A DNA stretch of 64,000 bases from Pseudomonadota bacterium (GTDB lineage: Bacteria; Pseudomonadota; Gammaproteobacteria; Burkholderiales; JAJZQI01): the NCBI GenBank assembly GCA_021851875.1, contig JAJZQI010000012.1:24082-88081 (forward strand), in the 5' to 3' direction. Positions 45,862 through 49,785 of this stretch are shown in pieces. Below the pieces are notes generated by a model. The model ran no database searches and was not told where the DNA came from. It was given only the letters and a program-made list of their open reading frames with translations. The position numbers and the translations under genes are program-made. The first letter of the stretch is position 1. Each line of letters begins with the position of its first letter.

Positions 45862-46089
45862 ATGAAACAGCCTCCCTAGAGCGGCTGCTTCAGGTGCTGG
45901 GGTCTGGCCAGCAGCGGGCATCGTCTCGGCGCTGACGGGCGTCTTTCGGGGGGCTTACGTCAGGCGAAGCACCAAGGGAAGTCTCTTTATCCTTGCCGCC
46001 AAAGCGATATTTTAGCAGCCGCCACTTGCCCGCATTGTTTGTCCGGCTGTTAATGGATGTTGTTGGGTGGGATGGGACGGTAATTCAAA

Positions 46090-46156
46090 GAAAAAGCCCG
46101 CATAGGGCGGGCTTTGTGGATTTCGCTGGACTGTGCGAAACAAGGTGTTGGTGGGC
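46090..46156. repeat. Island direct repeat, copy A (ssrA 3'-end/terminator-like)
   Basis: GAAAAAGCCCGC...TGGATTTCGCTGGACTGTGCGAAACA...TTGGTGG matches 49362-49430. Confidence 0.9.
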
Positions 46157-46322: not shown

Positions 46323-46553
46323 ATGACTCAACAGACGAATGAGACAGCAAGGGTTTATCCGCCAATGTCGACCGAGCTCAAGATGGTACTCGCCAGGCTT
46401 TCTCCTGAGGAGCACAGGGTGATGGTCGGTACGGCAAATTTGCTTATACGAATGCGAAAGTATGGCGCGACCAATCTGGATGAGGCCATTCAAATAGCGG
46501 ATCAGATAATCAAACGGAAACACCAGGAGAAGCTGGATGAATCAAAAACCTAA
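46323..46553 (+). CDS. Small hypothetical protein (76 aa)
   Basis: Open frame overlapping the next small ORF by a likely translational coupling. Confidence 0.5.
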   Translation: MTQQTNETARVYPPMSTELKMVLARLSPEEHRVMVGTANLLIRMRKYGATNLDEAIQIADQIIKRKHQEKLDESKT

Positions 46554-46790: not shown

Positions 46791-47705
46791 CTATCGGGTC
46801 ACCGGGGACCAGTGACCGCCGCCCGGCCACATGGCAGGAAATGTTGTGTTGGCGCTGGCTGCTTCGATGACTGGCAGCATGAAGGAGGACAGTGCTGCAA
46901 TGATTTCATGCAGTGCCAGCGCTTCCAATCTGTTCTTGCGTAGAAAAGCCTGCCACTGTGCTTGTTTTTGCACATCTTGTGCAAACTCATCCGTGAGACC
47001 GAATGGAATCCTGCCAGTCAGGGCCGTTTTGCGTCGATCGAAGGTGGCCTGAACGGCTTGGCGAAGCGTGTCACCATCGAAGTCGGTGTGCTGCGCCAGT
47101 ATCCACAGGTCAAAATAGTCTTTCATGCGACTGTTGGCGATGCCAAGGGATGACAGCGCCTCGAATTTTTCGGCCACCACGGTGTAGCGTGGATAGACCC
47201 GCAGCTTGGGTGCTGCGAATTCCGACAGCATGACAGGGTATTCGACATCCTCCGGGCCAGGCGTGACGGCATCGCCGAATCCAATATCGATCTGGATCGG
47301 GCAGCGTGCGCCATCGATCACGCCGAGCAACATCACGCGCACACCAGCGTAGTTCGCCTCCTTGCGAATTTCGGCGGCCTGCACGGTGTCGGGTTGAAAC
47401 ACCACGCCATCGTGAGTTTCTATCGCGCAAATTTCTCTGAAAACAACTCCGATGTGCGGCAGTTCTGCCGAGCCGAATCCCAGAAAATCGGCATCACGTG
47501 TTGGGCGATGAGGGATGTCGAACCACAGATCAAAAAGTAGTGCACCTTTCAGAAGAAATTGTTCGGCGTGCTGCGAGATGCTGATCCGGTACAGCAGTCG
47601 CTCAATCGCGTAGCGCGTGAGAACCAGACTGAAATCCTGCTTGGTCTCGCGGGCGCGGTTAAGCAATCTCGCACGTACGGATGCCGCCACATTTCGTTCA
47701 CTCAT
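46791..47705 (-). CDS. AbiEii/AbiGii-type nucleotidyltransferase toxin
   Basis: AEQFLLKGALLFDLWFDIPHRPTRDADFLGFG; TVVAEKFEALSSLGIANSRMKDYFDLW. Confidence 0.9.
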   Translation of the reverse strand: MSERNVAASVRARLLNRARETKQDFSLVLTRYAIERLLYRISISQHAEQFLLKGALLFDLWFDIPHRPTRDADFLGFGSAELPHIGVVFREICAIETHDGVVFQPDTVQAAEIRKEANYAGVRVMLLGVIDGARCPIQIDIGFGDAVTPGPEDVEYPVMLSEFAAPKLRVYPRYTVVAEKFEALSSLGIANSRMKDYFDLWILAQHTDFDGDTLRQAVQATFDRRKTALTGRIPFGLTDEFAQDVQKQAQWQAFLRKNRLEALALHEIIAALSSFMLPVIEAASANTTFPAMWPGGGHWSPVTR

Positions 47706-48301
47706 GGCAGGCTCTCCATGTAGGGCCGCATCACGTTTGCCACGCGACACAGCGTAGCATAGTGCCAGAGCTCGTCCATGGTCACGCGCTTGGCACGCCA
47801 TGCCTCTTGTAGCGCTTCCATCGCTACATCGAGGCCGATCTTGTTGCGAAACTTGAAGCAGTCGGTCACCGTGCGGGCAACGTTGGTCACGCGTACGGGC
47901 ACGCCATCGATCTGGCGCTCTTCAATCCCATCGGTCAGCGCAGCGCCGGAGAAGCGCACAATGCGCAGCGGCGGGTAATCCATCTTCGGTGCGCGCGCCT
48001 TGTTGGGAATAGCCAGCCAGACCTCGAACGGTGACTGCGTGGTGAGGTCGTGCACCCGCAGTGCCGAAAGCAGGCAGACGATGGCTTGCGGGTGTTTGCG
48101 TGCCACCTCGGCCAGCGTGCCATGCTCGGATACTCTGCGATCAGGGCGTGCATATAGGCCGCGCCCCACGCGGACGAGCAGGCCCTGCCAAACCAGCCGT
48201 GTGAGGGCGATACTGGGCAGGCCGAGCGCCTTGAGATCACGCGGGCGGACGAGACCGCGCTGGGCGGCAAGATTCAGAATGGTTTGGTGCGTACTTTCCA
48301 T
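47702..48301 (-). CDS. AbiEi-type antitoxin/transcriptional regulator
   Basis: Winged-helix N-terminus and AbiEi C-terminal features (LRIVRFSG, IDGVPVRVTNVARTVTDCFKFRNKIGLDVAMEAL); ORF track extends to 48337. Confidence 0.88.
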   Translation of the reverse strand: MESTHQTILNLAAQRGLVRPRDLKALGLPSIALTRLVWQGLLVRVGRGLYARPDRRVSEHGTLAEVARKHPQAIVCLLSALRVHDLTTQSPFEVWLAIPNKARAPKMDYPPLRIVRFSGAALTDGIEERQIDGVPVRVTNVARTVTDCFKFRNKIGLDVAMEALQEAWRAKRVTMDELWHYATLCRVANVMRPYMESLP

Positions 48302-48302
48302 G

Positions 48303-48367
48303 GTTGCATAATGTTGCATTAGGTCGGTAGATGTCAATAACTACCAACGAAATGCAACATTATGCAA
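48303..48367. promoter_or_regulatory. Probable AbiEi operator: perfect 18-bp inverted repeat
   Basis: GTTGCATAATGTTGCATT (48303-48320) and AATGCAACATTATGCAAC (48350-48367) are exact reverse complements. Confidence 0.8.
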
Positions 48368-49314
48368 CGACTGCCTTTACCTATGCATGTCGCAGCGGAT
48401 TGCACCTTAATCATCTGCCACAGGCAATACCTTGCGATTGTGATCCATCGAGTCGTGAAACCATCGGGTACTGGCTTGAATGGTTTGCTGGGCGAGCGAT
48501 GGCTGCTCTGAAACTGGCGGAGCGCTTGTACGTCGATTTCGCCAATCACACAGTAGTCGGTGACCCCTCCTTTGACTCGCAGCACGTCGCGTTTCCAGCT
48601 GTCCTTGAATGGGGCGCGGATGCGGCTGTCACCGTATTGCCGATCGTTACATTGAATGATGTAGGCATGCATGTCCAGCGCGGCAGATTCAACCAGCGCA
48701 TTGAAGGTTTCTGTATCTGGATTCCATTCCGGTACAAATAGCACATCCACCTTGCCACGCAGGTCGGCACGGTAACTGATGTTGGTTAATTCGCTGCAAA
48801 CCAGCAGCGCAAAGCGAAGGTCACCATGTTGAATGACTGGTGGTTTTACCCATGTTTTGTCAGGCCGCATTTCCAAGCCGGCCAACCGGAACAACTCCTG
48901 CTCCTCATGCAAAGCTGGGCGCTGCTTGTCCTGCCGGTAAATCATCAGTGAGGGGAACCCTACGCCGTCGTGTAGCAGGGCTGCCCATACTTGATTGCGT
49001 ACCCGCGCCTTGCTTGCATGCAAGTACTGGATACCCGTGATCAGTGAGATACCTCGGCCTTGAAGCTTGCGGGCAATGCGTACGAACCAGTGCGCGGGCA
49101 GTGCCAATTCCGGCAGAATCAGATAGCGACTATTGCGAGGTTGGGTGATCACAGTATCTAGCATGCGGCACAAACGTGCATATCGGTTGATATCCGGATC
49201 AGGCATATGCATTACCCGATTCGGTGTGCTCACATCGAACTGCTGTTGCAAGTGATTGGGCGCGACGATGGCTGCCGCACCTGCACGCGGCCCGGGCCGA
49301 CGGCCATAGCCCAC
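48334..49314 (-). CDS. Nitrilase/carbon-nitrogen hydrolase domain, likely truncated from an RT-nitrilase (DRT/UG-type) defence protein
   Basis: LILPELALP (Glu), IYRQDKQRPALHEEQELF (Lys), LLVCSELTNISY (Cys) fit the nitrilase triad; no RT domain; start abuts island repeat. Confidence 0.65.
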   Translation of the reverse strand: MGYGRRPGPRAGAAAIVAPNHLQQQFDVSTPNRVMHMPDPDINRYARLCRMLDTVITQPRNSRYLILPELALPAHWFVRIARKLQGRGISLITGIQYLHASKARVRNQVWAALLHDGVGFPSLMIYRQDKQRPALHEEQELFRLAGLEMRPDKTWVKPPVIQHGDLRFALLVCSELTNISYRADLRGKVDVLFVPEWNPDTETFNALVESAALDMHAYIIQCNDRQYGDSRIRAPFKDSWKRDVLRVKGGVTDYCVIGEIDVQALRQFQSSHRSPSKPFKPVPDGFTTRWITIARYCLWQMIKVQSAATCIGKGSRCIMLHFVGSY

Positions 49315-49360
49315 TTGGGCGCGAATCCCTTCCTAGTGCATCAGGAGGATGGTAATCTAA

Positions 49361-49388
49361 TGAAAAAGCCCGCTAGATGCGGGCTTTA
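49361..49388 (-). terminator. ssrA terminator
   Basis: Minus strand AAAGCCCGCATCTAGCGGGCTTTTTCA. Confidence 0.85.
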
Positions 49389-49430
49389 TGGATTTCGCTG
49401 GACTGTGCGAAACATGGAATTGGTGGAGCC
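49362..49430. repeat. Island direct repeat, copy B (overlaps ssrA 3' end)
   Basis: See copy A. Confidence 0.9.
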
Positions 49431-49785
49431 GGCGGGAATCGAACCCGCGTCCGCAAATCCTCTACAGGCAGTTCTACATACTTAGTCTGATTATTTGGAT
49501 TTAACCGTTTGCGCGCCAACCAGACAGGCTAGCATTCGGCGAGTTGTCTTAATTTAGCGTTCCAGCCAACAACACTCAGTAACGCGATCCGATGTAAATG
49601 ACACTGCTGCCGGTTTTACCCGACCTGGCCCATCGGCCTGCCAGTGCAGTGTCCGGCTGGATTAAGCAGCCAGAGAGTAGTTTTCGTCGTTTGCGACTAT
49701 TTGTTTCCAGATGGATTTACGAGGTAACTGGGCCTCGGTATGCCCTGCGTTGCTTTGCAATCTACGTCGAAACCAGGTCGGCCCC
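49421..49785 (-). ncRNA. ssrA: tmRNA
   Basis: 5' GGGGCCGACCTGGTTTCGAC; tag GCAAACGACGAAAACTACTCTCTGGCTGCTTAA = ANDENYSLAA*; 3' GCGGGTTCGATTCCCGCCGGCTCCACCA; acceptor stem pairs. Confidence 0.98.

Follow-up and report, generated by a model that had tools for sequence, protein, structure and literature searches.

Probable decayed remnant of a UG5-type reverse transcriptase–nitrilase gene on a small ssrA island

Results

An island at ssrA carrying AbiE genes and a nitrilase ORF

The 64,000-nucleotide stretch of DNA that was analysed (the window) contains a tmRNA gene, ssrA, whose 3′ end is the target of a small inserted island bounded by two 80-bp att-like repeats that are 84% identical (Table 1). 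The tmRNA terminator hairpin (−15.5 kcal/mol, z −4.05 in the copy at ssrA) occurs in both repeat copies, and the terminator is therefore kept at each end of the island. Between the repeats lie the remnant of a defence reverse transcriptase (DRT) gene that is the subject of this work, an AbiEi/AbiEii pair and small ORFs; no integrase was identified there. One of the small ORFs (46323–46553, plus strand, 76 aa) gave no match in a Pfam search.

AbiEi and AbiEii are arranged as an operon with an upstream inverted repeat, in keeping with membership of the AbiE type IV toxin–antitoxin systems, and the pair (46791–48337) is apparently complete and intact. The true start of AbiEi is likely the ATG at about 48301, immediately following the inverted repeat, and that of AbiEii probably lies near 47705. 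AbiEii is 74% identical to a copy on a plasmid of Methylomagnum ishizawai. The inverted repeat itself (28 nt, 48303–48368, 89%; −38.5 kcal/mol and z −9.35 when folded as RNA) stands directly before the AbiEi start, overlaps a promoter-like site (10/12) and is probably the AbiEi autoregulatory operator.

Table 1. Features of the ssrA island and its borders (window coordinates)
Feature	Coordinates	Strand	Basis or remarks
att-like repeat, far copy, bounding the ~3.3-kb island	46075..46154	.	direct repeat
AbiEii nucleotidyltransferase toxin	46791..47801	−	PADLOC AbiEii E=7.3e-118; Pfam PF08843 E=4e-50
AbiEi antitoxin	47702..48337	−	PADLOC AbiEi E=3.8e-87; Pfam AbiEi_4
Read-through of the ORF beyond the original stop, across the inverted repeat on the AbiE promoter side	48334..48406	−	frame reading
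Chimeric truncated pseudogene ORF	48334..49314	−	GTG start, 326 aa
Former C-terminal coding end (...NRKVLPVADD*), shifted to a different frame	48407..48460	−	1-nt deletion, tblastn, frame translation
Probable UG5-type RT-nitrilase remnant, nitrilase domain without first β-strand	48454..49212	−	catalytic E69, K130, C173 retained
IS3-family OrfB transposase gene, internal fragment, 132 bp	49213..49344	−	supplies ORF codons 1–34 and extends upstream almost to the att repeat
att-like repeat copy at the ssrA 3′ end, including the ssrA terminator hairpin	49347..49426	.	direct repeat D1
tmRNA gene ssrA, insertion target	49421..49785	−	tag ANDENYSLAA

The ORF matches the nitrilase end of UG5 RT-nitrilases

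The initial annotation had described the ORF as an orphan nitrilase domain resembling the C-terminus of reverse transcriptase (RT)–nitrilase proteins, and profile searches agree, pointing specifically to UG5. The PADLOC RT_UG5-nitrilase profile PDLC03780 matches ORF residues 32–287 with E=1.6e-111, a match confined to the C-terminal part of the profile (654–891 of 907), and the PADLOC Drt1a profile matches at 4.8e-20. Among solved structures, the only sequence match is DRT1 (PDB 9yfd; phmmer E=1.7e-08), and it falls within the nitrilase domain of that protein. A Pfam search of the ORF returned no family at E≤1, and an NCBIfam search returned only sub-threshold amidase matches, the best of which (0.08) is far below the cut-off. 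The plausible catalytic Glu, Lys and Cys lie where the initial annotation had placed them, in LPELALP, YRQDKQRP and LLVCSELTN, and form invariant columns in both of the alignments in which they were read, A1 (11 sequences) and A2 (48 sequences). The ORF holds the C-terminal nitrilase domain with Glu-Lys-Cys that is found in UG5 RT-nitrilases, which are class 3 DRTs; these anti-phage genes are of an already known kind, and from its sequence the remnant would belong to their UG5 type. Foldseek with a model of the ORF matched nitrilase-superfamily structures; the stand-alone amidases among the matches were dropped as evidence of family, the fold being common to the superfamily, and it is the sequence profiles that decide. 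Phage records gave no match, and the viral contigs yielded two distant relative loci only.

Relatives are fused RT-nitrilases

Scanning a single genome per species turned up 169 relatives, up to 90% identical to the ORF nitrilase, of which 80 were examined together with the two from viral contigs (82 loci). At least 650 codons are open upstream of the match in 70 of the 82, and a complete ORF measures about 1000 aa. These RT-nitrilase relatives carry RVT_1 and YVDD; in S. meliloti pRM41A, for example, WP_014989234.1 (1005 aa) combines RT and nitrilase and is 84% identical to the ORF across the part in common. Most of the exceptions, with shorter frames, lie at contig ends or are visibly broken. 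Loci among the 80 from genomes that look frameshifted, interrupted or truncated (L071, L072, L085, L103, L104, L110 and L115, some of which may be draft-assembly errors) add to the evidence that RT-nitrilase genes are often broken. A further RT-less fragment from this gene family, independent of the one in the window, lies at L110:5911–6411 (Ramlibacter) and starts midway through the nitrilase domain. At L085:3792–6792, within the otherwise fused family, RT and nitrilase occupy two overlapping frames, a layout that might reflect a frameshift, recoding or a genuine split of the gene. A full-length gene at ssrA, which the initial annotation had proposed to look for in relatives, was not found: 0 of the 30 DRT-bearing loci scanned have a tmRNA within about 6 kb. 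In one other genome of the same genus, the contig ends inside ssrA.

No RT accompanies the nitrilase

The absence of an RT domain, also claimed at the outset, extends from the ORF to the window and the rest of the genome. No YxDD RT domain is present in the ORF protein or adjoining it. The RT part of an intact relative, L048, found nothing on any contig of the window's genome and was matched in two control genomes; likewise, an RVT_1 search found nothing in this genome and matched in three named control genomes. One way to account for a nitrilase on its own ORF is that it is half of a split UG5 system, encoded by separate genes, whose RT has been lost or lies elsewhere. Such arrangements occur naturally in three distant loci (L024, L025 and L128), where an RT ORF lies upstream of a nitrilase ORF; in L024 and L025 the RT ORF overlaps a nitrilase ORF of 319–329 aa, and the L024 RT matches RT_UG5_small. 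However, the L024 and L025 nitrilases, which include the first strand, are only ~30% identical to that of the window, whereas the window ORF clusters with the fused 1000-aa family at 84–90% identity; furthermore, no separate RT gene adjoins the nitrilase and none is found in the genome. A split system is thus a highly improbable origin for the ORF, and one that the fused relatives already largely refute.

The 5′ end of the ORF is an IS3 OrfB fragment

As had been noted, the frame is open almost to the island repeat: upstream of the ORF it reaches 49332, adjoining an in-frame TAG (49333–49335), and ends about 15 nt from the repeat copy at ssrA. The accompanying proposal that recombination at this repeat had cut off the RT is not supported; a simple cut at the att repeat does not explain the loss of the RT, since an IS fragment of 132 bp separates that repeat from the DRT remnant. 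This fragment is 93% identical in DNA to L002:1471–1598, on another contig of the window's genome, and a genome search with the protein placed ORF residues 1–28 on another contig inside the OrfB gene of an IS3-family element. The L002 OrfB matches HTH_21 (E=1.2e-16), and related plasmid copies carry the annotation IS3 family transposase. On one side, the IS match stops at 49344, almost at the start of the att repeat at 49347. On the other, DRT homology begins at 49212 (ATGCATATGCC against ATGCGAATGCC in the closest-relative alignment), exactly where IS homology stops (49212/49213), and the ORF looks open across this junction because OrfB and the nitrilase are by chance in the same reading frame.

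The junction might be an assembly artefact, the true chromosome carrying an undamaged DRT gene to which the contig has wrongly attached an IS repeat. The assembly is a draft of 52 contigs, and other IS copies run off the ends of contigs C11 and C12, so the element is an assembly-breaking repeat. The fragment considered here, however, is only 132 bp long, is contig-internal between ssrA and the nitrilase, and is 7% diverged from the other copy; in addition, RT-part sequence is on no contig, and the separate frameshift at the C-terminus would remain. We therefore give an assembly error scarcely any weight.

The junction falls inside the nitrilase domain, after its first β-strand, at the equivalent of residue 744 of L048. 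In the AlphaFold2 model of L048 (mean pLDDT 86.6), a β-strand at 724–731 and a helix at 736–744 are the first elements of the nitrilase sandwich; the counterparts of both are missing from the ORF, whose nitrilase domain is therefore incomplete. The AlphaFold2 model of the ORF keeps the nitrilase fold (pTM 0.80), with IS-derived residues 14–21 modelled as a strand that replaces the lost one. The confidence of this strand is weak (block pLDDT 55–66), and it is a poor candidate for rescuing the fold, MAFFT having lined up the IS part with the true strand of the relatives in the input alignment.

The 3′ end is frameshifted

Nucleotide alignment with the closest relatives shows that a single nucleotide has been deleted near 48455, directly behind the conserved ...PVPDGF codons. 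Likewise, tblastn with L048 needs two frames, 49266–48454 (the length of this segment upstream of 49212 being a chance alignment with IS sequence) and 48460–48413 (L048 residues 995–1010). The C-terminal motif that is out of frame in the window includes R1003 and P1007, conserved in 35/35 and 34/35 relatives; by analogy, this conserved C-terminus (RKVLP) probably corresponds to the lid region without which DRT1 gives no defence. The ORF reads past the original stop (48407–48409) and ends inside the inverted repeat that precedes AbiEi.

Both ends bear on the possibility that the ORF is a domesticated nitrilase-only protein, a chimera that starts in the IS fragment, borrows a replacement first strand from it and is expressed as a stand-alone hydrolase or effector. 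The frame is open across the junction, the catalytic residues are intact, the core is little diverged, and the model retains a nitrilase fold with the IS residues as a strand and finds nitrilase-superfamily structures in Foldseek. Nevertheless, that strand is weakly confident, the input alignment had paired the IS part with the true strand of the relatives, a frameshift has displaced the C-terminal motif, and the ORF tail enters the AbiE promoter repeat. Furthermore, no promoter-like site was found just upstream of the ORF, its frame comes after the ssrA terminator hairpin, and no RT-less full nitrilase was found among close relatives outside the window's genome. Because the break removes the first β-strand and the C-terminus is also broken, this option, which the initial annotation had set beside decay, is weakened, and we regard it as very unlikely. 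That a transposase fragment by chance gave a start codon and a substitute strand, and with them a free-standing, RT-independent enzyme, is exceedingly improbable; if true, it would offer a route to study the substrate of the DRT nitrilase without the RT. Nor is the ORF an ordinary stand-alone amidohydrolase with an N-terminus matching this start site, the finding that was to have overturned the initial annotation: the close relatives are RT fusions, and the start site and first 34 codons are IS3 OrfB DNA, with no conserved N-terminus of a stand-alone amidase there.

The core is preserved

Some evidence speaks against decay: the nitrilase core has no internal stop, keeps its catalytic residues and departs from its relatives at only 1 of 86 conserved positions (E96Q). 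Either decay began recently or constraint on the core persists. Pairwise dN/dS between the window copy and relatives is about 0.02–0.07, low values that mostly reflect the time before truncation. In pairwise counts, amino-acid changes to outgroups number 45.6 for the window copy versus 31–41 for its neighbours, an excess that weakly fits a recent relaxation. The damage to the RT-nitrilase gene is probably recent.

Discussion

The ORF is very probably what decay has left of the 3′ end of an anti-phage gene of the UG5 RT-nitrilase type, carried on a small integrated island at ssrA. What the gene has lost is the RT and α-helical parts (about 740 codons) and the first nitrilase strand. The decaying DRT suggested in the initial annotation is borne out by the missing RT, the IS3-derived 5′ end and the C-terminal frameshift. 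With two ends broken independently, the status of the ORF as a gene remnant is settled: it is an ordinary remnant, not a new defence protein. We suggest that an IS3 element landed in or beside the RT-nitrilase gene and that subsequent deletions removed most of both the element and the gene.

The expected consequences can be considered in light of DRT1, in which defence needs both the RT and the nitrilase Cys, an RT-dead protein is monomeric, lacks toxicity and fails to defend, and deletion or mutation of the C-terminal lid abolishes defence (PMC13275509). If the UG5 protein behaves similarly, the leftover nitrilase, without RT, DNA adducts or C-terminal lid, would neither oligomerise nor defend, and by this analogy the ORF is most likely inert and does nothing. 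PADLOC-type domain searches would nonetheless call such an RT-less fragment a defence gene.

It is informative to compare the remnant with the known systems that it resembles. With stand-alone amidases of the nitrilase superfamily (for example PDB 5h8k and 3hkx) the ORF has its fold and Glu-Lys-Cys chemistry in common, although identity is 10–16% in the Foldseek matches listed. Of the IS3-family OrfB, the window has an internal fragment only, with no IS ends and no complete transposase. The split UG5 systems (L024, L025) are like the window in having the nitrilase on its own ORF, but theirs, ~30% identical to that of the window, is a complete domain that includes the first strand and has an RT gene overlapping upstream. 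DRT1, the UG1 RT-nitrilase (PDB 9yfd), has a C-terminal nitrilase distantly related to that of the window; it is a protein of 1229 aa that needs its RT, DNA adducts and C-terminal lid, whereas the window holds only part of a nitrilase. Compared with the UG5-type RT-nitrilases (PDLC03780, for example WP_014989234.1), the window copy is without the RT, the helical part, the first nitrilase strand and the C-terminal RKVLP, yet the nitrilase is 84–90% identical to theirs and its catalytic residues are alike.
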